Source of the DNA: Tateyamaria sp. Alg231-49
Lineage (GTDB): Bacteria > Pseudomonadota > Alphaproteobacteria > Rhodobacterales > Rhodobacteraceae
Length of the DNA stretch: 64,000 bases
Direction: 5' to 3'
Assembly (NCBI RefSeq): GCF_900143535.1
Contig: NZ_FRFA01000008.1
Span: 1 to 64,000 of the forward strand
Part shown: positions 10,692 to 47,187 of the stretch, in pieces
How the letters are laid out: every line of letters starts with the position of its first letter
Numbering within the stretch: position 1 is the first letter of the stretch
Notes under the pieces: model-generated
What the model saw: only the letters and a program-made list of their open reading frames with translations
What the model was told of the DNA's origin: nothing
Database searches by the model: none
Program-made: the position numbers and the translations under genes

Positions 10692-11227
10692 TTGATTGAA
10701 CAGCCCATGCTGGCCGTTTGATTCTGCGGACCTGCACCGGTCTGCGCGATCAAGCGCATGGCGTTGACCAGTTCCGGGGTACGTCCCGCCGCATCGCCCA
10801 TCCGCGCGTCATCCAAGCGTCCGCGATATTGCAAAAGACCATCTGCGTTTAGCCCGAAAAAATCAGGGGTACATTTGGCATCATAGGCCCGTGCAACAAC
10901 TTGATCCGTGTCCACGAGATAAGGGAAAGGAAAGCTGTATTTGTTGGCGAATTCTATCATCCGCTCCGGCGCATCTGCCGGATAGCTTTGATAGTCGTTG
11001 GACATAATGGCCAGAACGCCGATACCGTCGTCCATCAGCGCCCGCGCATCCTGTGCTAGGCGGTCAGCAATGGCGATCACGTAGGGGCAATGATTGCAGA
11101 TGAATGCGATCAGCAACCCGTTGGGACCGAGCAGCTGATCAAAGTGATGCACTGTCCCGCTTGCATCCGGCAATTCGAACGCAGGTGCGGCCCAACCAAA
11201 GTCACATACAGGGGGTCCTGTCAGCAT
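10682..11227 (-). CDS. Thioredoxin-fold (AhpC/TSA-like) redox protein
   Basis: A 181-residue cytoplasmic protein of the redoxin family. It has the CxxC-type site CNHCPYV (Cys44 and Cys47), the surrounding block LLIAFICNHCPY, and later conserved pieces ERMIEFANKY, PFPYLVDTDQ and CTPDFFGL. No signal peptide. Such proteins reduce disulfides or peroxides. Here the operon position between the corrinoid protein and DUF1638 suggests redox support for the cobalamin enzyme, which is inference. Start ATG 11227 has GAAAGGA upstream. The next gene overlaps its end. Confidence 0.85.
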   Translation of the reverse strand: MLTGPPVCDFGWAAPAFELPDASGTVHHFDQLLGPNGLLIAFICNHCPYVIAIADRLAQDARALMDDGIGVLAIMSNDYQSYPADAPERMIEFANKYSFPFPYLVDTDQVVARAYDAKCTPDFFGLNADGLLQYRGRLDDARMGDAAGRTPELVNAMRLIAQTGAGPQNQTASMGCSIKWR

Positions 11228-11260
11228 GGCCGTCCTTTCGCACCTTGCGAGGGGCCGAGT

Positions 11261-11962
11261 TTAGCCGGCCGCCAGTTGGTTGTGTTTGCGCGCAACAAAT
11301 TCCTTGGCCGTTTCAACGGCGACAGCGGCGTCGCGGCAATAGGCATCGGCCCCAATCGCCTTGCCGAACTCTTCGTTCAGGGGCGCACCGCCGACCAAAA
11401 CGATATAATCATCGCGGATGCCTTTTTCGACCATCGTGTCGATCACGACCTTCATGTAGGGCATCGTGGTGGTCAGCAGGGCGGACATACCAAGGATATC
11501 CGGGCCTTCGTTTTCAATGGCTTCCAGGTAGTTTTCGACAGGGTTGTTGATCCCCAGATCGACAACTTCGAAACCCGCACCTTCCATCATCATGGACACG
11601 AGGTTTTTGCCGATGTCGTGGATATCGCCTTTGACCGTCCCGATCACCATCTTGCCCACACGCGGCGCACCGGTTTCGGCAAGCAGGGGTTTGAGGATGG
11701 CCATGCCGCCTTTCATGGCGTTGGCTGCCAGCAGCACTTCAGGTACAAACAGGATACCATCGCGGAAATCAGCCCCGACGATGGTCATGCCACCGACAAG
11801 TGCCTTGGTCAGCACGTCATAGGGGACCCAGCCCCGCTCGATCAGGATGTTCACGCCTTCTTCGATCTCTTCGCGCAGACCGTCATAGAGGTCGTCAAAC
11901 ATCTGTTGGACAAGCTCTTCGTCGTCGAGTTCCGACAGGATGATTTCGTCTTCTTCAGACAT
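11261..11962 (-). CDS. Corrinoid (B12-binding) protein, probable cobalamin subunit of split MetH
   Basis: A 233-residue protein built like the cap and B12-binding modules of MetH. A helical cap covers about residues 10-95. A Rossmann domain follows with the lower-ligand motif GDIHDIGKN (His115), then DLGINNPVENYLEAI, GMSALLTTTMPYMK and VLVGGAPLNEEF. Such proteins carry methyl groups on cobalamin between methyltransferases. No MtgB/MttB-type methyltransferase adjoins it. The homocysteine methyltransferase at 13247-14263, on the same strand, is the likely acceptor partner. RBS GGAACGG precedes ATG 11962. Confidence 0.9.
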   Translation of the reverse strand: MSEEDEIILSELDDEELVQQMFDDLYDGLREEIEEGVNILIERGWVPYDVLTKALVGGMTIVGADFRDGILFVPEVLLAANAMKGGMAILKPLLAETGAPRVGKMVIGTVKGDIHDIGKNLVSMMMEGAGFEVVDLGINNPVENYLEAIENEGPDILGMSALLTTTMPYMKVVIDTMVEKGIRDDYIVLVGGAPLNEEFGKAIGADAYCRDAAVAVETAKEFVARKHNQLAAG

Positions 11963-12141
11963 GGCCGTTCCTTGAAGTTCGGGCGCGCAAGCGCCGTGCC
12001 AATTTAATCGCCAATTTGTCAGATTGCCGCAGATGGACTGTCCGAATTACGACATGGTTCGGATCAGCCGCGACCTGAGGCACATAGCGCCGTTGCATTT
12101 TGCCCTTGCTGTGTCTGATTTGGAACTGTTTTCTGGCGTAT

Positions 12142-12156
12142 GTTCACATTATGTTC
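12142..12156 (+). promoter_or_regulatory. LexA-type SOS box GTTC-N7-GTTC
   Basis: A direct repeat GTTC-ACATTAT-GTTC matches the alphaproteobacterial LexA consensus exactly. It ends 12 bases before the ATG of the radical SAM gene, where a bound repressor would block transcription or initiation. Binding is inferred from sequence only. Confidence 0.6.
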
Positions 12157-12168
12157 TAGTATTTTTGG

Positions 12169-13245
12169 ATGAGTAAAGACCTGCAAACAAGAAGTCCCAG
12201 GGGACGCGCGGCGCTTAGCAATGTGGTTGGGCGATTTGAGCCCATCACGCGTCATTCTGTCGATGACGGATGGGCCAAGGATGAGGAGTTGCCGACGCTG
12301 CGCACCGAGGTCGGTATTGAGCACCCACGCTCGATCATCACCTATAACCGTTCTCCTGATTTGCCCTTTGATCGCTCAATCAATCCATATCGCGGTTGCG
12401 AACACGGGTGCGTCTATTGTTTTGCCCGGCCAAGCCACGCGTATCTGGGTCTCTCTCCCGGGTTGGATTTCGAAACAAGGCTGATCGCGCGCCCGGATGC
12501 GCCGGATGTTTTGCGAGCTGAACTGGCCAAACGGACGTATGCTGTCGCACCAATAGCAATTGGCACCAACACCGACCCTTACCAGCCAATTGAAAAAGAG
12601 CATGGAATCATGCGGGCCTGCCTTGAGGTGCTGGAGGATTGCGGCCATCCAGTCGCCATTGTCACAAAGGGCGCTTTGATCGAACGAGACCTTGATATTC
12701 TCGGACGAATGGCGCGGCGTGGGCTTGTCCGCGTTGGAATATCGGTAACGACCCTCGATCGTGTGTTGTCACGGTTGATGGAACCGCGCGCTCCGGCACC
12801 TGAGCGTCGATTGCTCATGATCCGACGCATGAGCGGGGCAGGGGTTCCAGTGCGGATCATGGCCTCACCGATGGTGCCTGCGTTGACCGACCCCGAGTTG
12901 GAAGAGATTTTGAAGCGCGGCAAGGAGGCTGGTGCGCGAACGGCGAGTTGGATCATGTTGCGTTTGCCGCGTGAAGTGTCGGCTCTGTGGCAAGACTGGC
13001 TGGCGGCCCATTACCCCGACCGAGCGGGGCGGATTATGGCGCGGTTGCGCGAAATGCACGGGGGCAAGGAATACGATGCGCGTTGGGCGCACAGAATGAA
13101 AGGCGAGGGTGCCTATGCCGAGATGGTGGCCGCCCGCTTTGCGGTGGCGATCAAGCGGTTGGGATTAAAGGAAACGGCGCCTTCCATGCGCACCGACCTG
13201 TTCCAGCGCCCGGCTCCTGAATCCGCACAGCTGAGCCTGTTTTAG
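12169..13245 (+). CDS. PA0069-type radical SAM protein (SplB-related)
   Basis: A 358-residue radical SAM enzyme. The 4Fe-4S cysteines are in the compact CEHGCVYCFARPSH motif (spacing C-x3-C-x2-C) at about residues 79-92, preceded by the family block SINPYRGCEHG. Conserved GTNTDPYQPIEKE and ITRGAL-like segments follow. It belongs to the group distantly related to spore photoproduct lyase; the substrate is unknown. A perfect LexA-type box sits directly upstream, which hints at a DNA-damage role. It is transcribed against the split-methionine-synthase genes on both sides and converges with bmt, one base apart. Confidence 0.85.
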   Translation: MSKDLQTRSPRGRAALSNVVGRFEPITRHSVDDGWAKDEELPTLRTEVGIEHPRSIITYNRSPDLPFDRSINPYRGCEHGCVYCFARPSHAYLGLSPGLDFETRLIARPDAPDVLRAELAKRTYAVAPIAIGTNTDPYQPIEKEHGIMRACLEVLEDCGHPVAIVTKGALIERDLDILGRMARRGLVRVGISVTTLDRVLSRLMEPRAPAPERRLLMIRRMSGAGVPVRIMASPMVPALTDPELEEILKRGKEAGARTASWIMLRLPREVSALWQDWLAAHYPDRAGRIMARLREMHGGKEYDARWAHRMKGEGAYAEMVAARFAVAIKRLGLKETAPSMRTDLFQRPAPESAQLSLF

Positions 13246-13246
13246 C

Positions 13247-14263
13247 TCAAGCAACGCGACGATTGCCGCGCCGCTTGCGCGTCGGTGCCGTGTTTTCGCC
13301 GGTGCCGTCATTGGCCGATGAAAACGCGCCAAGCGCATCAACGATCTGGTCGAGGGTAGGCGCAGTCCCTTTGGGCCGCGTGTCGAGTGCGTTGCGCATC
13401 TGGCGCAAGTGCGCAGGTGTGGTGCCACAGCATCCGCCAATGATTGAGGCCCCGCAGTCGCGCGCCAGCACAGCATAGTCGGCCATCAATTCAGGCGTTC
13501 CATCATAGTGGATGTGCCCGTCATGGTATTTGGGGATACCGGCATTTCCCTTTGCGATCAGGGGGATGGGGCTGCCAGTTGCGGCAAAACCAAGAATCGT
13601 GCGCAGCAGGTCCGAGGCACCAGTACCGCAGTTTGCACCGAAGGCCAGTGGTGGATTGGGAAGCCCCGAAACCAGCAAGGCGAGGTCCGTGCTGGTCACA
13701 CCCATCATTGTGCGCCCAGCTGTATCAAAGCTCATCGTTCCGACCCAGGGCATGTCAGCCAACGCGAAACCTTCGGCCGCGGCGGTGTATTCTTCGGGCG
13801 CCGAAATGGTTTCCAGCCAGCCGATGTCGGCCCCGCCAGCCTTTAGGCCTGCGGCGGTTTCGTTGAACATCTCAACCGCGTCAGCGTGGCTGAGCGTGCC
13901 CACGGGTTCCATAATGTCACCGGTTGGCCCGACCGAGCCCGCCACGATCACGGTGCGACCCGCTTGATCTGCGACGTTGCGCGCGATTTCGGCGGCCATT
14001 TTGCTCAATTCAAAGGCACGGTGCCCTGCATCATGCAATTTCAGCCGTGAGGCGTTAGCACCAAAAGAATTGGTCAGAAACACATCGCTGCCCGCATCCA
14101 CAGCCCCTTTGTAAAGGGTCGTGATCTTTTCCGGCGCAGTTTCATTCCACAATTCGGGTGCGTCCCCGGCCATCAACCCCATTTCAAACAGGTTGGTGCC
14201 CGTGGCACCATCGGCCAGCAAAGTGCCTTTTTCGGCCAAAAGATCGCTGAATGGGTTGGTCAT
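13247..14263 (-). CDS. bmt: Homocysteine S-methyltransferase (Bmt-type; homocysteine subunit of split MetH)
   Basis: A 338-residue homocysteine-methyltransferase barrel. Zinc ligands are in FGANCGTGASD and in the paired cysteines of GGCCGTTPAHL near residue 275. The N-terminal block LLADGATGTNLFEMGL is typical. Annotation usually reads betaine-homocysteine methyltransferase. In Rhodobacteraceae, homologues beside corrinoid and DUF1638 genes are thought to be the homocysteine half of a divided methionine synthase; both readings remain open. A C-terminal basic tail RKRRGNRR is unusual. ATG 14263 is preferred to the in-frame ATG 75 bases upstream because GAGGAGCAG precedes it. Confidence 0.88.
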   Translation of the reverse strand: MTNPFSDLLAEKGTLLADGATGTNLFEMGLMAGDAPELWNETAPEKITTLYKGAVDAGSDVFLTNSFGANASRLKLHDAGHRAFELSKMAAEIARNVADQAGRTVIVAGSVGPTGDIMEPVGTLSHADAVEMFNETAAGLKAGGADIGWLETISAPEEYTAAAEGFALADMPWVGTMSFDTAGRTMMGVTSTDLALLVSGLPNPPLAFGANCGTGASDLLRTILGFAATGSPIPLIAKGNAGIPKYHDGHIHYDGTPELMADYAVLARDCGASIIGGCCGTTPAHLRQMRNALDTRPKGTAPTLDQIVDALGAFSSANDGTGENTAPTRKRRGNRRVA

Positions 14264-14300
14264 GGTCTGCTCCTCGCGCGCGCGTACTCCGTTCGTCCTT

Positions 14301-14314
14301 TCACGCATGCGTGA
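14301..14314. promoter_or_regulatory. Perfect 14-bp palindrome upstream of bmt
   Basis: TCACGCATGCGTGA is its own reverse complement and lies 37 bases upstream of the bmt start codon, in its leader or promoter. It looks like a dimer-binding operator. No regulator can be named. Confidence 0.4.
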
Positions 14315-14404
14315 TTGAAACCAGTTCATAATATTCATGTAGTTTATGAGTTGTGTATGATTTTAAGCCGATGCAAACCCCACAGCTTACCCGGCGCAGA
14401 CACG

Positions 14405-34611: not shown

Positions 34612-35418
34612 ATGGATCACCAGAGTATTATCGACACGATATCAACCGCAGTTGGCGACACACCCGGCATCGAGGCGCTGTTTCTAAGCGGTAGCCACGC
34701 AACCGGGCTGGCGGACGTTTATAGCGATATCGATTTTGTGATGGTGGCAGCGGACGGTGCGACAGACGTCGTGTCAGCCCTTTGGCGTGACGCCGTCGCC
34801 CAGACGGGTGAAATTGTGTTGTGGTGGGATCGCACCACGGTGCCTGTTCTTATCAACGCGATAACCGCTGATTGGACACGCACCGATGTTGTCATTCTGA
34901 AACCGGAGCAGATGGGTCACCACACACAGGCAGGGTTGAAGCCGTTGTTTGATCATAAAGGGCTGCACGCCACTCTGGCCAAGTCCCCAGCCGCCGGGCA
35001 ACCCAACCTCAAGAAATTCCGATATCAGATTGAAGAATTCGTTCGCATCCTTGGCCTTTTGCATCTGGCCGTGGGGCGCGAGGAATACATTAATGGCGTG
35101 CTTGGGGTGTTCCATCTGCGCGCAGCTCTGGTCGAATTGATGATCGAAGAGACGGCTGCTCCAAATCGCGGTGGTATTCTGCACCTCAACCGGCTGATCA
35201 CGGACGACCAAAAGCGGGTTTTGATGGCGATGCCTGCCCCAAAACCGGAACGCGAGGGCATGATTGCGGCGCATCTTGCCTATGCGGCTGCGTTCCTGCC
35301 AAGGGCAAGGAACAGGGCAGGGGCGTTGGGTGTGGAGTGGCCTGAAAGCTTTGAAGAGGTGACGTGGGCGCGCCTAAAGGAAAGCCTCGACATCGACTGC
35401 CCTTATTCGCGCACCTAG
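34612..35418 (+). CDS. Nucleotidyltransferase-domain protein
   Basis: A 268-residue protein with the DNA-polymerase-beta-type nucleotidyltransferase signature GSHATGLADVYSDIDFVMV near residue 26, with the two metal-binding Asp in SDIDF. A helical C-terminal region follows, as in aminoglycoside adenylyltransferases and related enzymes, but resistance function cannot be claimed. ATG 34612 is chosen because AAGGAG ends eight bases before it. Its stop overlaps the end of the minus-strand membrane gene by four bases. Confidence 0.75.
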   Translation: MDHQSIIDTISTAVGDTPGIEALFLSGSHATGLADVYSDIDFVMVAADGATDVVSALWRDAVAQTGEIVLWWDRTTVPVLINAITADWTRTDVVILKPEQMGHHTQAGLKPLFDHKGLHATLAKSPAAGQPNLKKFRYQIEEFVRILGLLHLAVGREEYINGVLGVFHLRAALVELMIEETAAPNRGGILHLNRLITDDQKRVLMAMPAPKPEREGMIAAHLAYAAAFLPRARNRAGALGVEWPESFEEVTWARLKESLDIDCPYSRT

Positions 35419-36068
35419 AGTGCCGTCCAAACGCCGACAACGCCCACGACGATCAAACTTAGCGCCCAGATCAGATCGAGATCGAACCAGCTGCGCGACA
35501 CGAATTGCAGCCCCAACCAGCGGTGCACAGCATAGGCCATCGCTCCTCCCGAACCGATCATCGCAATGGTGTGCAAAATCGCGACCCCAAGTGCCAGGGC
35601 CGTTGTGGCCATAAGCGCGGAGGCAGCGCGGTGGCCTGCATCCAATTCGTCCAGCGCGCAAAGGCCCAGATAAATCGGCACCAGCATCAAGGCGGCCCCA
35701 TGCGCAAGGGCCACCAGAAAGGACCACAAAGCCAGCCGATGCGGCGGGATGCGGGCCAAAAAGCGGGGGTGGCTGCGCGTGATCGCAAGGTAAAGGCCCA
35801 TTACAATCACAACGATCCCGGCACCGATGCGAATTTCGCGCTGATAATCAATCAGAAGGGTCATCATGGAAAAGGGGAGCAGAATGCCCAGCATCGCTGC
35901 GAAATGACCCACTGACAGCGCGCCAAGGGCCGGCCACAGCGCGCTGCGCCGACGCTCAAACAGTGCAGACGACACAGCCAGCGGCCAGCCCATGCCTGGG
36001 TTAAGGCCGTGATAAAGGCCAGAAAGGATCACGGCGAGCCAGAGGCCCGCCGCGGTTGTCAGGTCCAT
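35415..36068 (-). CDS. Polytopic membrane protein coupled to the SBP56 gene
   Basis: A 217-residue protein with about six membrane segments. Histidines lie inside or next to helices (SGLYHGLNPGMGW, SVGHFAAM, ALAHGAALM, ILHTIAM), reminiscent of metal transporters of the nickel/cobalt type, without the exact signature. Its ATG lies directly after the stop of the SBP56 gene (no bases between), so the two are co-translated. A metal supply or export role for SBP56 is a reasonable guess only. Confidence 0.65.
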   Translation of the reverse strand: MDLTTAAGLWLAVILSGLYHGLNPGMGWPLAVSSALFERRRSALWPALGALSVGHFAAMLGILLPFSMMTLLIDYQREIRIGAGIVVIVMGLYLAITRSHPRFLARIPPHRLALWSFLVALAHGAALMLVPIYLGLCALDELDAGHRAASALMATTALALGVAILHTIAMIGSGGAMAYAVHRWLGLQFVSRSWFDLDLIWALSLIVVGVVGVWTAL

Positions 36069-37544: not shown

Positions 37545-38300
37545 TCAGGCGGTGGTACTCTCCTTTTCTGCCGCCTTTCTGGCGCGGGCATCGGCGACGT
37601 TTTGCGCCAGTTCCCGTGTATAGGCTTCTAGTTTGACAAGTGTTTGATCTGTGCGCGCGGCGTCTTTGTCCGTCAGCGCGTCAGCCAGTTCAGTGTGCAG
37701 AGCCACGATGGCTTCGCGCGAACGGGCCGAAAACGTGATCATGTTCATCAGGGGCTGCATCGCCTCGACCGCGCCAGCAAGTTGATAGCTGAGCACCTTG
37801 TTGCCAGCCCCATCGACCAAAGCGCGGTGAAAGGTGACATCTGAGGCGCAAAACGCCTCGTCCGACAGATCGGGCTGCGACTGGCGGTGGATTTCAGCGC
37901 GCATCGTGGCCAATTGATCCGGCGTGCGGCGCTGCGCGGACATTGGGGCGCAGGCGCGCTCCAACGCATAACGGGCCTCACAGGCCACATCAAAGCTGAC
38001 CGCGTTCATCGACAACAGAAGGGTCGAGGTTGTGACCTGTTGTGTATACGCCTCGGCGTAGCGCAGGCGATTGACGAAAGCACCGCCGGTTGCTCCACGC
38101 TGGGTGCGGATCAAGGATTGAGCCGCCAGACGCTTCAATGCTTCCCGCACAGTGGGACGAGACACTTCAAACTGATCGGCCAGTTCAGCTTCAGACGGAA
38201 GGCGCTGATCTACGATCAAATCCCCCGCAACTATGGCGTCGCGGATGGCTGTGGCGATCTGGGCGGATAGGTCTTTGGATGAATTAGGATCAATTTTCAT
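37545..38300 (-). CDS. GntR/FadR-family transcription regulator
   Basis: A 251-residue regulator. A winged helix-turn-helix occupies about residues 8-75 (LPSEAELADQFEVSRPTVREALKRLAAQSLIRTQRGATGG). An FCD ligand-binding domain follows (about 95-225) with metal-ligand His in VTFHRALVDGAGNKVL and ALHTELADAL. Members bind small organic acids. It lies upstream of the SBP56 gene on the same strand and may control it. An 11-bp inverted repeat spans its start codon. Confidence 0.9.
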   Translation of the reverse strand: MKIDPNSSKDLSAQIATAIRDAIVAGDLIVDQRLPSEAELADQFEVSRPTVREALKRLAAQSLIRTQRGATGGAFVNRLRYAEAYTQQVTTSTLLLSMNAVSFDVACEARYALERACAPMSAQRRTPDQLATMRAEIHRQSQPDLSDEAFCASDVTFHRALVDGAGNKVLSYQLAGAVEAMQPLMNMITFSARSREAIVALHTELADALTDKDAARTDQTLVKLEAYTRELAQNVADARARKAAEKESTTA

Positions 38301-38338
38301 TTGTCATACGTTTAAAGGTTTTTTGGGCAAATGAAAAT
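38293..38338. promoter_or_regulatory. 11-bp inverted repeat spanning the GntR start codon
   Basis: ATTTTCATTTG (38293-38303) and CAAATGAAAAT (38328-38338) are exact reverse complements 24 bases apart. The left arm contains the start codon of the GntR gene. It could be an operator for autoregulation or an mRNA hairpin that hides the start. Confidence 0.5.
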
Positions 38339-38698
38339 ACAAGGTTTAACTTGCAAAGGGCTTTCGATGCGAGGATTCAATATCCACCCGATCACATTAT
38401 GCGCCTAGGGTCAGCATTCTCTGATATCTGCCGATCCGCACCACCGGAACGGGAATATTTTTGTGCTACCCTGGGCAAAAGCAATTTGACCTCGCGCATA
38501 AACATCAGAAAACAAATGAAAAAGCCTCCGCCAAGAAGGGCGAAGGCTTTGATTGGTTTGCCTAATTATCCGGGTTGGCCCGCACTACCAAGCTGACGGC
38601 ACGTCAAAAAGCAAGGTCCCCTTGACAGCGCCTAAAGGCAGGAGGCTCATTCGTCCCGAACCCACAAAGAGCGGGTCTCGTCTAACGAGTTTGTCAAA
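38339..38698. other. Gap of about 360 bases with one hairpin
   Basis: No supported gene. A near-perfect hairpin (AAAGCCTCCGCC with GGGCGAAGGCTTT, 38521-38550) is followed by a T-rich stretch and could be a terminator for the minus-strand gene at 38699 or serve both directions. An 81-codon frame across it is Arg/Pro-rich and looks like chance. Confidence 0.4.
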
Positions 38699-39127
38699 CT
38701 AAAAACCGTTGTACGGCGGTTCGCTTTCGGGCTCAGGCTCTTCTTCAGGGGGTTCTTCCTGTGGGGGCTCTTCCTGAGGAGGTTCTTCCTGAGGAGGTTC
38801 TTCTGGATCGCCGCCTCTTTCGTGTTCGTCCTCTTCTAAAGACGCCGTAGCCGTATCCGTCAACAAACCGGCCAGAAGCGGGCAAGCATCGTAGGCGTAG
38901 TTCAAAACTTCGCCGAAGTCCTTATCCCTCTGGATCCGCGAGATGAATGAGACGGTGATCTCTTGGCACGCGCAAATCGCAGCAAAATCATCGGCAGCCA
39001 AAGACAAACGAGCAGATTTTGCATTGCAAACTGCGGACGTTTCCGCTGCCATAACTGGTTGCGGTGTGAACAATGCCAATGAAGCCAGAACAGTTCCGGT
39101 CGAAAAAGATGTGCGAACCAGCATCAT
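38699..39127 (-). CDS. Secreted protein with Glu/Pro repeat tail
   Basis: A 142-residue protein. The signal peptide ends about VMAAE (residue 29), a short mature core has four cysteines (VCNAK, ICACQ, DACPL), and the tail holds repeated EEPPQ units ending PYNGF. The tail would be extended and highly acidic, like a spacer or wall-facing segment. No family is recognised. Its ATG overlaps the stop of the VPLPA-CTERM gene by four bases, so the two are made together. Confidence 0.6.
   Translation of the reverse strand: MMLVRTSFSTGTVLASLALFTPQPVMAAETSAVCNAKSARLSLAADDFAAICACQEITVSFISRIQRDKDFGEVLNYAYDACPLLAGLLTDTATASLEEDEHERGGDPEEPPQEEPPQEEPPQEEPPEEEPEPESEPPYNGF
38751..38809. repeat. 15-bp tandem repeat coding for EEPPQ
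   Basis: Four units of 15 bases, of the type GGTTCTTCCTGAGGA, with small differences. Each codes on the minus strand for EEPPQ or a close variant. Unit number could vary between strains by slippage. Confidence 0.85.
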
Positions 39128-39774
39128 GCGACCTCGCTTACTTTTTTATTGCGGTACCGCGAAAATGCGAAGCAACCGCCAAATGCACTCAACATGAACA
39201 TAAAGGACGCAGGCAACGGCACAGCAGAGAGGCTTACGGCCCCGCGACCCAAGGTTACGGGCTGTTCAATCACCTTACCAGTTAGCTCGTAGTGACCCGC
39301 CTCTAGATACCATTTTCCTGAACTCCAAAGATCATTATGGAAAGCAGCTTCCCATTCATTTTCAATGTTATCACCTCCAGCGCCTTTACCCACCGCTTCA
39401 TAGTCAAACTTGGAAGTCTGACCTAACAAAGTGAAAACGCTGTTATCTACCGAAGTGTCTCTCAAATAAAGTTCAAACCGGTCACCATCAAGCCATCCAT
39501 CAGTGACCCTCAACGCTGAACGCCCGGTAAGTGAAAAACTGAAAGTTAACACTCCCAAGTCTTCAGCGCTTTCCTGAACACCATTTGGTCTCTCCCCCAG
39601 CTCGCGGGTGTCCAGAAAACCGCCTTCTTGGTGATCTTTTGAAAATCTGAATTCGTTCCAGTCCGAATTTGCTTCGATAACCTTTGTCACAGGCACTGTC
39701 GTACCGCTGGCGAAGCTGGGCAAAGCAGCAATGCATGCTGTTGCGAGGAGTTTTTTGAGGTACATTTTTGTCAA
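39124..39774 (-). CDS. VPLPA-CTERM surface/exported protein
   Basis: A 216-residue protein with a signal peptide (to about residue 23) and a beta-rich core. The C-terminal sorting signal covers residues 185-216: VPLPAS, a hydrophobic helix (FMFMLSAFGGCFAF) and a basic end, SRYRNKK. This is the VPLPA-CTERM type, handled by a dedicated exosortase that cuts at the motif and moves the protein outward. No exosortase is in the window. The core resembles the pre-peptidase or lectin-like beta domains of such proteins but is not assignable. Confidence 0.8.
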   Translation of the reverse strand: MTKMYLKKLLATACIAALPSFASGTTVPVTKVIEANSDWNEFRFSKDHQEGGFLDTRELGERPNGVQESAEDLGVLTFSFSLTGRSALRVTDGWLDGDRFELYLRDTSVDNSVFTLLGQTSKFDYEAVGKGAGGDNIENEWEAAFHNDLWSSGKWYLEAGHYELTGKVIEQPVTLGRGAVSLSAVPLPASFMFMLSAFGGCFAFSRYRNKKVSEVA

Positions 39775-40337
39775 CCTAATTCATAATCATTACTAACGCT
39801 GCGCGGCGTTTGGGCCGAAATCGGTCGCTGCGAACTTACGTAGGTTGGGTGCCACAGTTTTGCAACATTCGCAACACAATGTCGTCTTAAGTGTGTCCGA
39901 AATGCCGCTTTGCTCACAAAGGAATACCCCAGTAGCGAATGGTGGCCACAGGAACAGCAAGACTGTCATTCATCATAAGCGGCGGCGATCAAAATGCCGG
40001 AGTATATTGATAGTAAATGTAAAATAGTTACGCAGCTAAGGTGTTTACCCACTTCGCTTTGACAGAAAACTACTGATCGCTGGAATTGTAGCGGCCAAGT
40101 TTGTGCCGGCAAATCAACATCGCTGGTGCAGTGTCAGAGCAATAGAGGGAGTGTAGAACATTGGCACCGTACGTCGGATGATTGTTTGCTTCTAAGCAAC
40201 AAGCGCGCGATTCTGGGGCCTTCGCCTAGACAGTTGCAATACGTCTTCTTGGCGGATCAGGTGGCCAGCGCTGCGCACTAAACGCCACAAATGTCTGCAA
40301 TTGAGAAACGGAGGTGGAGCCCGGCTAAATGTTCTGC
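39775..40337. other. Gap of 563 bases without a recognised gene
   Basis: No coding frame has support; a 60-codon plus-strand frame (39845-40027) looks like chance. An imperfect hairpin lies near 40181-40202 (TTGTTTGCTT with AAGCAACAA). The stretch must hold the promoter of the VPLPA-CTERM gene. It is AT-richer than the flanking genes. Confidence 0.45.
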
Positions 40338-40967
40338 TCAGCCGTTTATCACCAAACCCACCCATTTTTCAGGCTGGTCAGGATTTTGCATGCGCAGGAA
40401 CGTGTAATTTGTCTTCCGCCAAAGCTTGATTTGATCTGAGAGGTTATCAAGAATGAAGTCCCCTTTGTCGGTCCGAAGTACCAACACTGCATGCGACCGC
40501 CGCTTATGATCAAGAACGGTCGCGAGAAGCAGTCTTTGCGGAGCTATACCGGCACGCACAAGTTCCAGTTTTTTAAGAAGAGCAAAATCCTCGCAGTCCC
40601 CACCTCCTGATGTCGGAAGGGTCCAATAATCTTCGCGTCGGTATTGTACTTTATCCGCGACATCTCGGATTTGACGGTTCACCTTGCGATTGATGTTGCC
40701 GATGAGCCGCAAGTCACTTTGGGTTACGCTTTTGTTTGCCCGTGAAGAGGAGCAGACCCAATCGTATTTGTTGCAAATTCCCTTGGCACCGGTAGGGGCA
40801 TTCATGGCCAGCTTTACTTTAAGAAAGTCGTTTGTAGACGCTTTTGTCTCAGTCGGCTGGAAGGCCGCCATAATGCCTAAAAGACATAGAAAAGTACCTG
40901 CCTTTAACTTTTGGCTCGTACTAATATCGAAGCTTATACGCTCCAGAATCTTGTTCAGGTGTGTCAT
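40338..40967 (-). CDS. Transglutaminase-like cysteine peptidase (BTLCP family)
   Basis: A 209-residue exported protein. A hydrophobic segment at residues 23-37 is the signal, and the papain-like fold has Cys125 in SGGGDCEDFALLKK, His159 in RRSHAVLVLRT and Asp174 in FILDNLSDQI. LapG of Pseudomonas, which frees an adhesin by cutting it, is the known member of this family. No LapA- or LapD-like gene is adjacent, so the target is unknown. ATG 40967 is chosen; GAGG precedes it and the upstream extension has no coding character. Confidence 0.85.
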   Translation of the reverse strand: MTHLNKILERISFDISTSQKLKAGTFLCLLGIMAAFQPTETKASTNDFLKVKLAMNAPTGAKGICNKYDWVCSSSRANKSVTQSDLRLIGNINRKVNRQIRDVADKVQYRREDYWTLPTSGGGDCEDFALLKKLELVRAGIAPQRLLLATVLDHKRRSHAVLVLRTDKGDFILDNLSDQIKLWRKTNYTFLRMQNPDQPEKWVGLVING

Positions 40968-41337
40968 GGCAGCGGCCTCGATTGTTAAACCTTCTGTCAA
41001 CAGGCAGACCGCAACCCAAAAGTCTGCGAACCAGCACGTGTTGCAAAAGTGATCGCAACTATAAGTGGCGAAACTTAGGCCCAAATTTGTCCAGAAAAAT
41101 AAATGCAAAGAAGGACCAGTATCTTTACGCCGCTGTGGCCCAAGCAGATATGCAGATCAATGGCCGGCTGGGCAAAATGGCTAGCTCTAGACTGCGACGC
41201 CGTTTGAGGGTCGAATTAACCCGCAGCGATCTCGCGGGCAAAAAAGCGTCAGGCTGAAACCCCATCACTTGCCACACAAATTAATGTCTGACATTTAAAC
41301 TGTCATGGACTGAGTCGACCAATGTCAGGGAGGGCAA
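40968..41337. other. Gap of 370 bases without a recognised gene
   Basis: One plus-strand frame (about 41097-41257) reads KKDQYLYAAVAQADMQINGR and on to a basic end. It looks somewhat protein-like but has no ATG/GTG at a proper place; it may be a gene remnant or chance. The promoter of the DUF2182-acuI run should lie near 41260-41330, ahead of the AGGGAGG ribosome site at about 41329. Confidence 0.4.
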
Positions 41338-42126
41338 ATGTCGCATCTTGTTCGCTCAACACTGTGGCTGGGCTTTTTCGGCGCAATTCTTGCGTCATGG
41401 TGGGTGATGTATTCCATGTCGATGGACATGGACCTCGATCTGCTGGGCCGCCCCGGTGAGATGGGCGCGCGGATGGCCGCGATGGACCCGCGCATGCCGA
41501 TGTATATGCCTATGGCGAATTTTGGCCCATTGTTCTGGATGTGGGCAATCATGATGGCGGCGATGATGTTGCCAACACTTGTCCCAACCCTGCGCTGCTA
41601 TGAAGACTTGATGGTGTCCGCAGATGGCACGCGGGCAGGGTGGTTGGGTGTGATTTTAGGCTACTTCATAGTTTGGGTCGGCTTTGCCGCAGTGATTACC
41701 AGTGTCCAATTGGGTCTGCTCTTTGGCGGCGTAATCGACATGCTTGGCATCGCGAAAACCAACGTGTTTGCAGGGCTGCTGCTTTTGGCCGTTGGCACAT
41801 TTCAATTCAGCCGCGCCAAGGAAATCTGCCATGGCGTGTGCCACAGTCCGATTTCGTATTTCCTTGGCCACTGGAAAACAGGGCTGTTCGGGGGGCTCAG
41901 GATGGGCCTTGGCCTAGGCGCGTTTTGCGTGGGCTGCTGTTGGGGATTTATGGCGCTCGGCTTTGTTGGTGGCGTTATGAGCCTTGCGTGGATGGGGCTC
42001 GCCACCCTTTTCATGGTACTCGAAAAACTTCCCCAAATCGGGCACGCTGTAACAAAACCTATGGGGGCGATCTTGGTCGTCGCCGGTCTGGCCGTGTTGG
42101 CCTGGCCTTATATCGGAGGACTATAA
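41338..42126 (+). CDS. DUF2182 integral membrane protein
   Basis: A 262-residue protein of the predicted metal-binding membrane family DUF2182 (COG5486), with about seven membrane segments. A Met- and Asp-rich periplasmic loop (residues 25-60: MYSMSMDMDLD, MAAMDPRMPMYMPMANFG) looks suited to bind copper or another soft metal. The cysteines in EICHGVCHSP and FCVGCCWGFMALG are also conserved-looking. First gene of the run that leads to dmdA and acuI; one base separates it from the DUF1326 gene. AGGGAGG precedes the start. Confidence 0.88.
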   Translation: MSHLVRSTLWLGFFGAILASWWVMYSMSMDMDLDLLGRPGEMGARMAAMDPRMPMYMPMANFGPLFWMWAIMMAAMMLPTLVPTLRCYEDLMVSADGTRAGWLGVILGYFIVWVGFAAVITSVQLGLLFGGVIDMLGIAKTNVFAGLLLLAVGTFQFSRAKEICHGVCHSPISYFLGHWKTGLFGGLRMGLGLGAFCVGCCWGFMALGFVGGVMSLAWMGLATLFMVLEKLPQIGHAVTKPMGAILVVAGLAVLAWPYIGGL

Positions 42127-42127
42127 G

Positions 42128-42835
42128 ATGGCCGTAAAGAAACGACCTGACGCCGACAAACTGCCAATAAGTCAGCGGATCGACAGTCGCATGCCCAACC
42201 CTGGACGTCGGCAGATGACTCCGACCGATTGGGCAATCAAGGGCGAGTTGTTCATGAACTGCTCTTGCGAGGTGGTGTGTCCCTGCGGCATTTCTCTGGG
42301 CAAGCACCCGCCGACCTATGGCTATTGTCAGACGTGGTTTGCCATGCAAATCGACGATGGGCATTTCGAAGGCGAAAGCCTTGCTGGGCTGAACGTTGCT
42401 TTGCTGATCGATATTCCGGGTCGCATGTGTGAAGGGAACTGGAAAGTAGCCGCTTATGTCGACGATCAGGCGACCAACAAGGCTTACAACGGTCTTTTGA
42501 AAATTCTCTCCGGACAAGCAGGTGGCAGCACCGGAGTATTCAATTTTCTTGTGTCAGAAATTCTGGGCGCTGAGCGGGAAAAGGTAGTCATCGAAAAGGA
42601 TGGCCGCCGTCGCCGCATCATTGTCGGGCGTAAGATCCAAGGCGAGATCGAAATGATTCCCGGTAAAGACACTGAAGTTCCAGTTTCGATGCAGAACACC
42701 CAGTACTGGATGGGCCCTGTCATCTATCCTGCCGTCGGTTTGAAATCCAAAGTGCGTGACTACGGCCGAGTCTGGGATTTCGAAGGCAAGTCTGGGGATA
42801 TCATCCCGGTTGATTGGAAAGGCCCCAGACCTTGA
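42128..42835 (+). CDS. DUF1326 Cys-rich protein
   Basis: A 235-residue soluble protein of DUF1326 (COG5588). The N-terminal metal-like cluster is NCSCEVVCPCG (Cys45, 47, 51, 53), followed by KHPPTYGYC (His60, Cys67). The rest is a beta-rich fold. DUF1326 is often found next to DUF2182, as here, which suggests a shared metal or redox task. The stop overlaps the next start by four bases. Function is not known. Confidence 0.88.
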   Translation: MAVKKRPDADKLPISQRIDSRMPNPGRRQMTPTDWAIKGELFMNCSCEVVCPCGISLGKHPPTYGYCQTWFAMQIDDGHFEGESLAGLNVALLIDIPGRMCEGNWKVAAYVDDQATNKAYNGLLKILSGQAGGSTGVFNFLVSEILGAEREKVVIEKDGRRRRIIVGRKIQGEIEMIPGKDTEVPVSMQNTQYWMGPVIYPAVGLKSKVRDYGRVWDFEGKSGDIIPVDWKGPRP

Positions 42836-43341
42836 TCGAGGCGGAGTATGTCCGGACCATGGCCCGCTACAATGCGTGGCAGAACCGTCAGTTGACAACA
42901 GTCCTGGCGGACATGGATGACGACACACTTCGCGCTGATCGGGGTGCGTTTTTCGGATCGATCATGGCGACGCTCAACCATATCCTGTGGGCCGATACCA
43001 TCTGGATGAGCCGGTTTCACGACCGTATTCCCGCACCCGATCCGAATGGCCCGTCCCATTTGGAATATACGCCAACGTTTGCTGTCTGGACCGCAGATCG
43101 ATTTCGCATCGATGGCGCCATCCGCTTGTGGGCCGACACGCTGCGTACGTTGGATTTAAAACGCCGTTTATCGTGGTATTCCGGCACGTTAGAGAAAGAT
43201 ATGAAGCAGCCACTTGAAGTTTGTGTAACGCATATGTTCAACCACCAAACCCACCATCGCGGCCAAGTGCACGCGATGATGACCGCCGCCGGGTTCAAGG
43301 CCCCGGTTAGTGACATAGTCTTTATGCCAGAGGATGAATAA
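42832..43341 (+). CDS. DinB-family protein (YfiT-like fold)
   Basis: A 169-residue four-helix DinB-type protein with the metal-binding His pattern: HILWADTIW (first His) and THMFNHQTHHRGQVH (second and third His). Relatives include thiol S-transferases that use bacillithiol, mycothiol or glutathione. TTG 42832 is chosen: it overlaps the DUF1326 stop (TTGA) and GGAAAGG lies eight bases before it. ATG 42859 is an alternative. The stop TAA shares its last A with the ATG of dmdA. Confidence 0.82.
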   Translation: MIEAEYVRTMARYNAWQNRQLTTVLADMDDDTLRADRGAFFGSIMATLNHILWADTIWMSRFHDRIPAPDPNGPSHLEYTPTFAVWTADRFRIDGAIRLWADTLRTLDLKRRLSWYSGTLEKDMKQPLEVCVTHMFNHQTHHRGQVHAMMTAAGFKAPVSDIVFMPEDE

Positions 43342-44444
43342 TGGCCGTCCTATCCCCATCGCGCCGCCTGCGCCGCACTCCGTTTTCTGACGGCGTCGAA
43401 GCCGCCGGTGTCAAAGCCTACACCGTTTACAATCGCATGCTCTTGCCCTCGGTTTTTGAGAGCGTCGAGGCCGACTATCGTCACCTGAAAGATCACGTGC
43501 AGGTCTGGGATGTGGCTGTCGAGCGCCAAGTCGAGTTGCGCGGCCCGGATGCGGGTCGCCTGATGCAGATGCTAACTCCGCGCGATCTGCGCCGCATGTT
43601 GCCGGGCCAGTGCTACTATGTGCCCATCGTGGATGAGACGGGGGGCATGCTGAACGATCCGGTTGCCGTCAAACTCAGTGAAGACCGCTGGTGGATATCA
43701 ATTGCGGATTCTGACCTGTTGCTCTGGGTCAAGGGGATCGCCAATGGCTATCGCCTCGACGTGCTTGTGGACGAACCCGATATCTCTCCGCTCGCTATTC
43801 AGGGGCCCAAGGCCGACGATTTGATGGCGCGCGTCTTTGGGGACCGCATCCGCGACATCCGGTTCTTCAAGTTCGACATGTTCCAGTTCATGGACAAAGA
43901 CCTCGCCATCGCGCGCTCTGGTTACTCCAAACAGGGCGGGTTCGAGATTTACGTAGATGGTGCCGAGATAGGCATGCCGCTGTGGAATGCCCTGTTTGAC
44001 GCGGGCGAAGACCTGAACGTGCGCGCTGGGTGCCCCAACGGGATCGAGCGCATCGAGGCGGGCCTTTTGTCTTATGGCAACGACATGACTGACGACAACA
44101 CGCCACATGAATGTGGGTTGGGCCGGTTTTGCGACACCCAGACGGCCATTGGCTGTATTGGGCGCGATGCGCTGCTGCGCGTGACCAAGGAAGGTCCGGT
44201 ACAGGAAATCCGGCCAATCTCGATCGACGGAGACGCTGTTGGTCCATGCGATCGTCCCTGGCCCATCTTTGCCGGTGGCCGCCGGGTGGGGCAGGTGACA
44301 AGTGCCGCCTGGTCGCCGGATTTCAGCACAAATGTGTCTATCGGCATGGTCCGCATGACCCACTGGGATCCCGGCGCCCCGTTGGAAGTTGAAACCCCGG
44401 ATGGTATGCGCCCCGCGATGGTTCAGGAGTCATTCTGGTTGTGA
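43341..44444 (+). CDS. dmdA: DMSP demethylase DmdA (GcvT fold)
   Basis: A 367-residue member of the aminomethyltransferase (GcvT) fold. DmdA moves a methyl group of DMSP to tetrahydrofolate, giving methylmercaptopropionate. It begins with the DmdA-like SRRLRRTPFSDGVEAAG and AYTVYNRMLLP, has VWDVAVERQVELRGPDA and SPLAIQGPKADDLM, and the folate-side block SGYSKQGGFEIYVDG. Placement directly before acuI matches the order in Ruegeria. A different GcvT paralogue is possible but less likely. Its ATG overlaps the DinB stop by one base. Confidence 0.82.
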   Translation: MAVLSPSRRLRRTPFSDGVEAAGVKAYTVYNRMLLPSVFESVEADYRHLKDHVQVWDVAVERQVELRGPDAGRLMQMLTPRDLRRMLPGQCYYVPIVDETGGMLNDPVAVKLSEDRWWISIADSDLLLWVKGIANGYRLDVLVDEPDISPLAIQGPKADDLMARVFGDRIRDIRFFKFDMFQFMDKDLAIARSGYSKQGGFEIYVDGAEIGMPLWNALFDAGEDLNVRAGCPNGIERIEAGLLSYGNDMTDDNTPHECGLGRFCDTQTAIGCIGRDALLRVTKEGPVQEIRPISIDGDAVGPCDRPWPIFAGGRRVGQVTSAAWSPDFSTNVSIGMVRMTHWDPGAPLEVETPDGMRPAMVQESFWL

Positions 44445-44449
44445 TCTGC

Positions 44450-44520
44450 GGGATTGGGGCGTTGCCCCAAACCCCATGGTATTTTTAGTCAAAAGAAGCT
44501 CGGACCGCAGGTCCGCACGC
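44450..44520. repeat. REP-like intergenic element between dmdA and acuI
   Basis: Two perfect small hairpins, TTGGGGC-GTT-GCCCCAA (44454-44470) and CGGACC-GCA-GGTCCG (44501-44515), flank the stretch CCCCATGGTATTTTTAGTC. This pattern is like the short dispersed intergenic elements common in Rhodobacteraceae genomes. It may act as an mRNA stabiliser or partial terminator between the genes. No second copy was noticed in the window. Confidence 0.5.
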
Positions 44521-44534
44521 ACATGGAGAACGAT

Positions 44535-45521
44535 ATGTTTAATGCACTGGTGGTGAACAAGGACGAAGAAAGCGGAAAGACATCCGCTTCGGTCGCGCAG
44601 TTGGGTCTGGATGATCTGCCCGCCGGTGAGGTGACAGTTTCGGTCGAGTACTCCACCGTCAACTACAAGGACGGGCTGTGCATCGGCCCCGGTGGCGGTC
44701 TGGTGCGCAAGTATCCGCATGTGCCGGGCATCGACTTTGCCGGCACCGTGGAGGCTTCCGACGACGACCGCTATGCCCCCGGTGACAAGGTTGTGCTGAC
44801 CGGTTGGCGTGTGGGTGAGGCCCATTGGGGTGGATATTCACAAAAGGCGCGGGTCAAGGCCGATTGGTTGGTTCCACTGCCAAGTGGTTTGGACACACGG
44901 CAAGCCATGGCAGTGGGCACGGCCGGGTTCACGGCCATGCTGGCGGTCATGGCGTTGGAAGATCACGGGATCAAGGCGGGCCCTGTTTTGGTCACAGGTG
45001 CGGCTGGTGGTGTCGGATCGGTCGCAACAGCGATCCTTGCCAACCTCGGCTACAAAGTGGCTGGTGTGACGGGACGTCCGGAGACGGCGGATTATCTGAC
45101 CTCGCTCGGCGCCACGCAGATCGTGGCCCGCGAAGAGATCAACGAGACCGTCAAGCGTCCGCTGGAAGGCGAGACGTGGGGTGGATGCGTCGACGCCGTC
45201 GGCGGCGCAATGCTGGCCCGTGTCTTGGGACAGATGGAATATAGCGCAAGCGTCGCAGCGGTTGGCCTTGCAGGTGGCGCGGGGCTGCCTGCGACAGTCA
45301 TTCCGTTCCTGCTGCGCGGTGTGAACTTGCTTGGGATCGACTCGGTGATGCAACCCTACGACAACCGGGTGCGGGCATGGGAGCGTGTCGCCACGGATCT
45401 GCCGATGGACAAACTTGAGGCGATGATCCAGCCCGCTACACTATCGGACTTGCCGCAACTGGGTTCCGACATCCTAAAGGGACAGGTCAAGGGCCGCGTG
45501 GTCGTCGACGTTAACGCCTGA
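44535..45521 (+). CDS. acuI: Acryloyl-CoA reductase AcuI
   Basis: A 328-residue medium-chain reductase (zinc-free MDR type) that reduces acryloyl-CoA to propionyl-CoA with NADPH, protecting the cell from acrylate made from DMSP. It has the nucleotide-binding GAAGGVGSVA, the front block YSTVNYKDGLCIGPGG, and LLGIDSVMQPY near the end. Length is standard. ATG 44535 is chosen; GGAG lies six bases ahead. It follows dmdA by 90 bases across the hairpin element. Confidence 0.9.
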   Translation: MFNALVVNKDEESGKTSASVAQLGLDDLPAGEVTVSVEYSTVNYKDGLCIGPGGGLVRKYPHVPGIDFAGTVEASDDDRYAPGDKVVLTGWRVGEAHWGGYSQKARVKADWLVPLPSGLDTRQAMAVGTAGFTAMLAVMALEDHGIKAGPVLVTGAAGGVGSVATAILANLGYKVAGVTGRPETADYLTSLGATQIVAREEINETVKRPLEGETWGGCVDAVGGAMLARVLGQMEYSASVAAVGLAGGAGLPATVIPFLLRGVNLLGIDSVMQPYDNRVRAWERVATDLPMDKLEAMIQPATLSDLPQLGSDILKGQVKGRVVVDVNA

Positions 45522-45573: not shown

Positions 45574-47187
45574 TCAAAGCAGATTGGCTTCGAGTGCGTC
45601 AATCTCGGACCCGATATAGTCGTGGGTGTCGGCGAGGCCGCCGATCGTCGTCAGCACCACATCAAGTGCTGCACTGGCTGTTGAGATGCCGACAGTCAGG
45701 TTGGCTGCGGTTGACACGAAATTCGCAACAAAGGCCATGACTTTTTCGATCTGCTCCATGGTCATCGCGGTGCCTTTGTTCAAAAGCGCAATGGTCTGTT
45801 CCAGCTTTCCGACCCGTGTGCCCATATCCTGATAACGCTTGTTGCCATCGGCGATCTTGTCGAGCAGTTGGGTCACCACCTGTCCGGCGCTGTCACTGTT
45901 TGCGATCAACTTGTCGACCTCGGCCAGAATAGTGCGCTTGTCGCCTGCATTGATCACTGAATTCTGCTGCACCGCTTTTTTGTAGGTGATAACACTGGCG
46001 ATTTCCTTGGTGTTGACTGCGATCAGGGTGTTGGCCTGTTTCATCAACTCATCCAGCTTGCGTTCGGCAAGCGCAAGGCGTGGCTTGAACACATCAATGA
46101 CGTCCTTCACGGACGAGAATGTCTTGGCCAGCCCGCCACCTGAAATCGCATTCAACGTGACAAGGGTGCCTTCGCGGGCATGTTCTCGGATTGTGGGTTC
46201 GTGGTCGTTATAGGTGTCCGCCAGCCGTTTGATCGCGCCTTCCATGCTTTTGAGGACTTTTTCGAGGTCCCGGTAATACTGCTTCCAGACGGTGACCAGT
46301 GCTGCGGTGGCGCGCAGGGCCGCAATCGTTCCGGCCACTGCGCCCGCCACGTTGCCCGACGCGATGGAGGTGCCGGTTCCGACCACAGCGGCTGCGCCGC
46401 CGATCACGGGAACGGCAATCGCGCGAAACTTTTTCTTCTTGAACCCTTTGGTGACTTCGTAGCGGTTGATGAACTTGTCCCACGCGACCTCTACGACCTT
46501 TTCCGCCTTGGCTCCAAAGGCGACGACGAACTGGTTGAGGTCGACCGTCAATTCTGGATTTTCCTGCGCGGTGGTGATGCGCTTTCGCATGTTGGTCAGT
46601 TCTGCATCAAACAGCGTGTTGGCCGCGTCGGTCATCCGGGCGGCAAAGGCCTCGGCGTTATGTGTCTTGAGTGCGCTGATGAAGAATTTCGGCAATTTGA
46701 GTTCAACCGGAGTCGCAAGGCCGTTATATTGCCCCACAATCTGTTCATTGACACCGGCTGATATCAGCGACGTTGCAAATGACTTGCTCCAGAGGGTGAC
46801 CAACGTGTCGTCAAGGTTTTCCGCCTCCTCTGCGTCATCCTCGACAGCCTCGTTGTCATCAAGGCCGTCTTGCGGGGCTGCGGATGACTTGATCACAGAA
46901 GGCGCAACCGTCAACTTCGAGAAATAGGGTTTGAGGGCCGCGTCCTTGAAGCTGGACGTGATCTTGTCACAGCTAAACGTACAGGTTTTTCCATCTTCCG
47001 AGATAGACACAGAGCCGAAGGCCGTCAGCTTGCCCTTTTTTTCGGCCTTGCCTTTCAGGGCGGCGCCCTTTTTCTTTTTGTCGGCGATAATCCCGACCGG
47101 TGAGCCGGACCCATCATAAGCCGCAAAGCCATAAGACGCGCCGGCGTTTTTCTTGAGGGTCTGCACAATGCTTTCAAACGAGTCCAT
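45574..47187 (-). CDS. 537-residue helical protein with hydrophobic hairpin, unknown
   Basis: No family recognised. Residues 1-100 are a small mixed domain with a Lys-rich segment (ADKKKKGAALKGKAEKKGK). Residues 105-128 are acidic and flexible. Residues 130-250 are helical. Residues 255-300 are a Gly/Ala-rich hydrophobic stretch (VPVIGGAAAVVGTGTSIASG onward) able to form a membrane hairpin. Residues 300-470 are long amphipathic helices with coiled-coil spacing, and 483-517 are again hydrophobic. There is no signal peptide. The layout recalls alpha-helical pore-forming proteins, but that is only a shape comparison. It is single, between acuI and the HIT gene. Confidence 0.8.
   Translation of the reverse strand: MDSFESIVQTLKKNAGASYGFAAYDGSGSPVGIIADKKKKGAALKGKAEKKGKLTAFGSVSISEDGKTCTFSCDKITSSFKDAALKPYFSKLTVAPSVIKSSAAPQDGLDDNEAVEDDAEEAENLDDTLVTLWSKSFATSLISAGVNEQIVGQYNGLATPVELKLPKFFISALKTHNAEAFAARMTDAANTLFDAELTNMRKRITTAQENPELTVDLNQFVVAFGAKAEKVVEVAWDKFINRYEVTKGFKKKKFRAIAVPVIGGAAAVVGTGTSIASGNVAGAVAGTIAALRATAALVTVWKQYYRDLEKVLKSMEGAIKRLADTYNDHEPTIREHAREGTLVTLNAISGGGLAKTFSSVKDVIDVFKPRLALAERKLDELMKQANTLIAVNTKEIASVITYKKAVQQNSVINAGDKRTILAEVDKLIANSDSAGQVVTQLLDKIADGNKRYQDMGTRVGKLEQTIALLNKGTAMTMEQIEKVMAFVANFVSTAANLTVGISTASAALDVVLTTIGGLADTHDYIGSEIDALEANLL

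Follow-up and report, generated by a model that had tools for sequence, protein, structure and literature searches.

Genes of the PpoB2 and DUF1326 families, candidates for metal handling, accompany dmdA and acuI in Rhodobacteraceae

Introduction

The breakdown of dimethylsulfoniopropionate (DMSP) by roseobacter-type bacteria ranks among the major steps of the marine sulfur cycle, for which the DMSP demethylase gene dmdA serves as a marker. In the 64,000-nucleotide stretch of Tateyamaria sp. Alg231-49 analyzed here (the start of contig NZ_FRFA01000008.1; hereafter, the window), dmdA is followed by acuI, coding for a protein of the acryloyl-coenzyme A (CoA) reductase family, and is preceded by three genes for a PpoB2-family membrane protein, a DUF1326 protein and a DinB-family protein. 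What are such genes doing in front of a DMSP demethylase? An original prediction, made from the DNA letters, considered this coupling unexpected and proposed that the three proteins handle a metal, a thiol or a methylated intermediate of the pathway. We compared this locus across the family and found that the PpoB2 and DUF1326 genes, often joined by the DinB gene (together, the module), are widely conserved beside dmdA and are linked even more broadly to acuI and to other CoA enzymes. A role in copper or soft-metal handling is tentatively proposed.

Results

The family survey covered 295 genomes from 294 genera, in which dmdA was called above a curated cut-off. The gene was detected in 125 genomes, and all of its 135 loci were compared. 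PpoB2 and DUF1326 were each found at 99 of these loci, DinB at 57, AcuI at 98 and a GntR-type regulator at 86. Since PpoB2 and DUF1326 are present at 99 of the 135 dmdA loci of 125 genomes, the arrangement is not a matter of chance, and the worry that it could be a peculiarity of one genome can be set aside: the comparison of dmdA neighborhoods places the module beside dmdA far beyond the genome of the window. Where both PpoB2 and DUF1326 are present (99 loci), AcuI is found in 89 cases, DinB in 53 and a divergent GntR gene in 80, to be compared with 8, 3 and 6 cases, respectively, for the 36 dmdA loci devoid of the module. Among named near relatives, the module is present at 76 of 80 dmdA loci, which are the best 80 of at least 591 and are biased toward near relatives. 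Junctions are tight, with a spacing of at most 10 nt for DUF1326-DinB (102/106), DinB-dmdA (105/111) and PpoB2-DUF1326 (106/140), in a set that counts some genomes twice; of the 106 measurable DUF1326-DinB junctions, 56 have a gap of -4 and 39 one of -1. The conserved organization of the module, dmdA and acuI is well supported by these data.

In the window itself, the five-gene order and the successive gaps of 1, -4, -1 and 90 bases that had been read initially match the open reading frame coordinates exactly (Table 1), the TTG start of the DinB gene being located inside a TTGA overlap with the end of the DUF1326 gene. The palindrome and the GntR and SBP56 genes listed in Table 1 do not appear in the original prediction. 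DUF2182, as the first product was called, corresponds to PF09948, whose present Pfam name is "PpoB2, Copper chaperone", and the genome contains one PF09948 copy. The acuI product is placed just below the cut-off of the AcuI equivalog model NF051456 (414.6 versus 440). The DUF1326 gene of the window shares 86-87% identity with those of genomes G082 and G250 and only 71% with that of the same-genus genome G240, and the PpoB2, dmdA and acuI genes are nearer to Tateyamaria than to G082/G250; this looks like the replacement of a single gene.

Table 1. Features of the operon and its surroundings in the window
Feature	Position	Strand	Evidence or remark
Protein of unassigned family, 217 aa, membrane-like	35415-36068	-	no Pfam/NCBIfam match; beside SBP56
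SBP56 protein, 466 aa	36069-37469	-	PF05694, 576.5 bits
GntR/FCD regulator	37545-38300	-	PF00392, PF07729
Operator-like palindrome TGTCTGACA	41285-41293	.	ends 44 nt before PpoB2 start
PpoB2-family (formerly DUF2182, COG5486) membrane protein, 262 aa	41338-42126	+	PF09948, 195.3 bits vs gathering score 28.7
DUF1326 protein, 235 aa	42128-42835	+	PF07040, 165.5 bits vs gathering score 25
DinB-family protein, 169 aa, TTG start	42832-43341	+	PF05163, 83.6 bits vs gathering score 23
dmdA, DMSP demethylase	43341-44444	+	NF009133 equivalog, 686.8 vs cut-off 410
acuI, acryloyl-CoA reductase family	44535-45521	+	TIGR02823, 443.1 vs cut-off 297.25

Is the module a specific partner of dmdA? Window-type DUF1326 proteins form a clade that is set off by a score gap (at least 182 bits versus at most 101 bits for the other copies) and that occurs in 139 of the 295 genomes, with dmdA adjacent in 99 of them. 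For this clade and for dmdA above its cut-off, the calls are complete over the 295 genomes; AcuI and PpoB2 calls were completed for the 139 module genomes from the compared loci, and the PpoB2 sites away from dmdA number 59 among the matches listed, the loci being compared for most of them. Genomes with both dmdA and the module (106) are accompanied by genomes with dmdA only (19), the module only (33) or neither (137), giving an odds ratio of 23 that, like the p values reported below, ignores phylogeny. An acuI gene is found near the module in 118 of the 139 module genomes, i.e., at 89 dmdA loci and in 29 genomes without intact dmdA there (including L327, L331, L333, L337, L339, L343, L348, L352-L354, L356 and L357). 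Coupling of the module to DMSP demethylation, as initially proposed, holds insofar as it is conserved beside dmdA and fails as a dmdA-specific link, and a role restricted to methanethiol or methylmercaptopropionate leaves these 29 genomes unexplained.

The remaining 21 module genomes comprise 12 with another CoA enzyme, four in which the locus ends at a contig edge (L284, G060, G030 and G180) and five with neither. In four genomes lacking a close AcuI, the partner is a crotonyl-CoA carboxylase/reductase (Ccr), encoded after dmdA in L285 and after DUF1326 in L359, L360 and L361; the latter three pass the family cut-off, the Ccr of L285 is 84% identical to that of L360, and the enzyme was seen in none of the other loci among the 170 compared. 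In eight module loci with no acuI or Ccr nearby, the partner is an AMP-forming acyl-CoA synthetase, located between DUF1326 and dmdA (L197, L219, L238, L240 and L246), after dmdA (L257 and L273) or after DUF1326 (L345). Five module-free loci (L241, L252, L271, L274 and L276) also have the synthetase gene before dmdA, and in L201 and L235 it is found with acuI beside it. Methylmercaptopropionate or acrylate could be the substrate of this enzyme. The DUF1326 clade also reaches beyond the family: among 240 genomes searched, six that belong to other families carry it at 300 bits or more, and a synthetase of the same type is present in four of these six loci, directly after DUF1326 in L370, L372 and L373 and following dmdA in L371. 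Only that of L373 passes the PRK08162 cut-off (742.3 versus 677), those of L371 and L372 being partial, and L374 and L375 display a different arrangement.

The turnover of dmdA points in the same direction. On a tree of 112 loci (88 of the 99 module loci with dmdA and 24 of the 40 others), the presence of dmdA changes at least 19 times, of which 12 changes are forced by well-supported branches; the tree was built by a quick method under a simple model, with 38 of 109 branches open, and, being unrooted, does not distinguish gain from loss. Shuffling the labels yielded 22.1 changes on average, indicating that dmdA is hardly clustered on the tree. A fragmented dmdA at the operon position in L357 fits a loss, with a draft-genome error being possible, and L353 displays a partial DmdA-like stretch past PpoB2. 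These changes speak against dmdA as the specific partner of the module; dmdA is an optional member between the module and acuI.

The constancy of acuI could also be a mere legacy of an old genome layout, in which the module and acuI share a promoter and a location with no common function. A wider synteny does exist within 20 loci of the window clade, where fumarase, chromate transporter, BCCT transporter, aminotransferase and photolyase genes (named by eye) each occur in 9-10 of 40 loci. However, the genes overlap or almost overlap at their junctions across genera, the unit is inverted in L331 and L333 yet still adjoins acuI, and other CoA enzymes take over where acuI is absent, all of which make an explanation by layout unlikely.

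The three upstream proteins present strongly conserved candidate metal ligands. In 176 PpoB2 sequences from the compared loci, M68, M72, M76, M77, C164, C168, C197, C200, C201 and M205 are conserved at 98-99%, and these Met and Cys residues may coordinate a metal. Five cysteines of DUF1326 (45, 47, 51, 53 and 67) are conserved at 98-100% in 119 sequences, and His50, His138 and His142 of DinB at 97-99% in 80 sequences; conserved histidines of the DinB superfamily bind metal. These Met, Cys and His positions count among the most conserved ones of the three proteins, alongside Gly, Pro, Trp and other residues. PpoB2 of Marinomonas transfers copper to a tyrosinase (PMC2855505). The metal role advanced in the original prediction agrees with the copper-chaperone family PF09948 and with the conserved residues, and its assignment to copper proceeds by analogy.

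Alternatively, DUF1326 and DinB might be pathway enzymes whose substrates are acryloyl-CoA, 3-hydroxypropionyl or methylthio intermediates, with PpoB2 as a transporter and no role for copper. The partners of the module are indeed acyl-CoA enzymes. Moreover, the 12 best Foldseek matches of the DUF1326 AlphaFold model (pLDDT 77.7), with E values from 1.5e-6 to 5.8e-4, belong without exception to the acetoacetate decarboxylase type, and DinB gives a weak match to mycothiol-S-transferase, below the cut-off (22.3 versus 27). However, the TM-scores of the DUF1326 matches reach only 0.32-0.41, and hhalign with three acetoacetate decarboxylase sequences returned a probability of 0.8%, with no profile support, so that the predicted likeness to this fold is taken as a lead only. 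The PpoB2 model matches no solved structure at E 0.001, and the Met/Cys set among its conserved residues speaks against this alternative. We regard this enzymatic alternative as rather unlikely. A sequence search of solved structures gave no useful match for PpoB2 or DUF1326 and one weak match for DinB (E 0.012).

Another copper-based scenario would be general metal detoxification, in which the module guards against copper and is placed under a DMSP-responsive regulator as algal surfaces supply both compounds. It would be in line with a second, diverged clade (L307-L326), in which DUF1326-PpoB2 pairs are encoded in reverse order elsewhere in the genomes and no neighbor recurs in more than 4 of 20 loci. 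The steady link of the window-type module to acuI and other CoA enzymes is left unexplained by this scenario, which we consider very improbable. Within the diverged clade, two reverse-order pairs face each other in L307, and an ABC-transporter ATPase gene adjoins the pair in L311, L316 and L318.

How is the operon controlled? Of the 99 loci combining the module and dmdA, 70 have the palindrome TGTCNGACA in the 250 nt upstream of PpoB2, for an expectation of 0.005 per 250 nt calculated from the remaining locus sequence. When the module loci are divided according to GntR, the palindrome precedes PpoB2 in 77 of the 90 that have the regulator gene and in 0 of the 40 that do not, some of the latter being truncated by contig ends. 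It is also present in 5 of the 36 dmdA loci that lack the module and in 7 of 31 dmdA-less module loci. Eight further ATGTCNGACAT sites occur in the genome of the window, seven of them within long open frames, L403 being ambiguous. These observations suggest that the GntR protein binds the TGTCNGACA palindrome. In relatives, the GntR gene is divergent and adjoins PpoB2, whereas both are ~3 kb apart in the window. That interval (38301-41284) contains a gene for a BTLCP cysteine peptidase (40338-41108).

Beside the GntR gene, the window encodes an SBP56 protein that may be a methanethiol oxidase. The block formed by SBP56, the 217-aa protein and GntR recurs next to the operon at 21 of the 80 named loci, including that of Ruegeria lacuscaerulensis (L114); SBP56 is beside GntR in the window, L182 and L185 as well, and directly after dmdA in L261. 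Both the window and the L114 proteins contain Cys76, Cys140 and Cys456, and the other SBP56 type in the alignment has its cysteines elsewhere. Cysteines 76, 140 and 456 are essential in RlMTO, a cluster-1 enzyme of R. lacuscaerulensis that degrades methanethiol (PMC10936201). The window protein does not pass the MtoX equivalog model NF052453 (120.9 versus 650) and looks like a cluster-1 methanethiol oxidase of the RlMTO type, and the cysteine positions suggest that the L114 gene codes for RlMTO of Cao et al. 2024 (PMC10936201). According to Wirth et al. 2020 (PMC7157515), R. lacuscaerulensis is devoid of mtoX and other members of the selenium-binding family might act instead; our locus points to one SBP56 gene as the methanethiol oxidase left open in that study. 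The 217-aa type of protein is encoded next to window-type SBP56 in L182, L185, L261, L362-L366 and 21 named loci, and is possibly a partner of this oxidase. In L066 and L068, a DmdA-like gene is found near another SBP56 type.

Could PpoB2 and DUF1326 be a dedicated copper supply for SBP56, allowing the oxidation of DMSP-derived methanethiol? Besides the gene neighborhood and the RlMTO-like cysteine set, a bacterial SBP56 is copper-dependent (PMC5739008), and histidine motifs that we read as its published ligands are common to both SBP56 types. Furthermore, the module is associated with SBP56 over the 295 genomes (77/139 with the module versus 24/156 without, p 3e-13) and in dmdA-less genomes (11/33 versus 14/137, p 0.002). 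On the other hand, dmdA genomes show no such association (66/106 versus 10/19, p 0.45), 62 of the 139 module genomes are devoid of SBP56, and known methanethiol oxidase loci have SCO1 and MauG genes instead (PMC5739008). SBP56 was rejected as a general copper client on the first two grounds, its association with the module in dmdA-less genomes still holding, and a dedicated supply appears to be of low probability.

Two other regions of the window were noted. A 537-aa protein without match in Pfam and NCBIfam searches is encoded at 45574-47187, convergently with acuI, and a corrinoid methyl-transfer-like cluster (corrinoid protein, homocysteine methyltransferase; read by eye only) is located at 10059-14338.

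Discussion

This work reveals that the module usually lies directly upstream of acuI and that, at most dmdA loci, it is headed by the TGTCNGACA palindrome and a divergent GntR gene. The explanation that we tentatively favor, although with less than even confidence, is that the module handles copper or another soft metal and is expressed together with C3 acyl-CoA metabolism, as well as with dmdA in bacteria that demethylate DMSP. The metal, its client and the role of the module are what we infer here. Acryloyl-CoA is a thiol-reactive electrophile and methanethiol is a copper-binding thiol. In the proposed mechanism, the GntR protein would bind the palindrome and release the operon upon accumulation of acrylate or one of its derivatives; PpoB2 and DUF1326 would bind Cu(I) and relay it at the membrane and within the cytosol, and DinB would act as a metal-dependent enzyme on a thiol or an acyl electrophile. 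The likely purpose would be to preserve copper/thiol balance while AcuI clears acryloyl-CoA and DmdA opens the route to methanethiol. The persistence of the module beside acrylate-type CoA enzymes in loci without dmdA suggests that the pathway includes metal or thiol control. Regarding induction, the dmdA-acuI operon of Ruegeria pomeroyi responds to both DMSP and acrylate (PMC3338564).

Several observations weigh against this proposal. The module is absent from 19 of the 125 dmdA genomes and is consequently dispensable. Five of the 139 module loci (L233, L347, L349, L351 and L355) have no acuI, Ccr or synthetase nearby although the contig continues, and acuI is divergent from the module rather than downstream in L331 and L333. 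GntR accompanies only 10 of the 31 dmdA-less module loci, which implies that regulation follows dmdA more than acuI. In dmdA-less genomes, no significant association was obtained between the module and cupin DMSP lyases (17/33 versus 42/127, p 0.068; 160 of 170 genomes searched). Finally, the copper function is borrowed from a distant relative, PpoB2 of Marinomonas.

A literature search on the names DUF1326 and DUF2182 found nothing, and the accessible literature passages contain no description of genes upstream of dmdA, to which little weight should be given as most subscription journals fall outside this search. The R. pomeroyi promoter is already contained in a 350-bp fragment that ends within dmdA (PMC3338564), and this model strain is accordingly probably devoid of the module; perhaps this is why it has been overlooked. 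If three quarters of the sampled dmdA loci share a transcription unit with metal-handling genes, it becomes possible to test whether copper supply or copper toxicity controls the pathway. A more ambitious and doubtful extension would be that the acryloyl-CoA/DMSP operon of marine Rhodobacteraceae has copper/soft-metal handling built into it as a regulated component, in which case metal status would help to steer DMSP to methanethiol and sulfur assimilation versus dimethyl sulfide.

Compared with known systems, PpoB2 of the window belongs to the same family (PF09948/COG5486) as that of Marinomonas mediterranea, whose ppoB2 gene forms an operon with its client gene (PMC2855505). The partner there is the tyrosinase PpoB1, whereas here the partners are DUF1326, DinB, dmdA and acuI, and copper transfer would apply by analogy. 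The SBP56 protein of the window shares Cys76, Cys140 and Cys456 with RlMTO (PMC10936201) and, unlike MtoX (PMC5739008), is flanked by the 217-aa protein and GntR rather than by SCO1 or MauG. A three-gene acuI operon with a TetR-type regulator and a DMSP lyase, in which acuI is also under acrylate control, differs from the window in that PpoB2, DUF1326 and DinB do not figure in its description in the accessible part of PMC3338564. In the roseobacter dmdA-acuI operon, acuI directly follows dmdA as well (PMC3338564), and to this described arrangement the window adds three genes and, further upstream, a palindrome.

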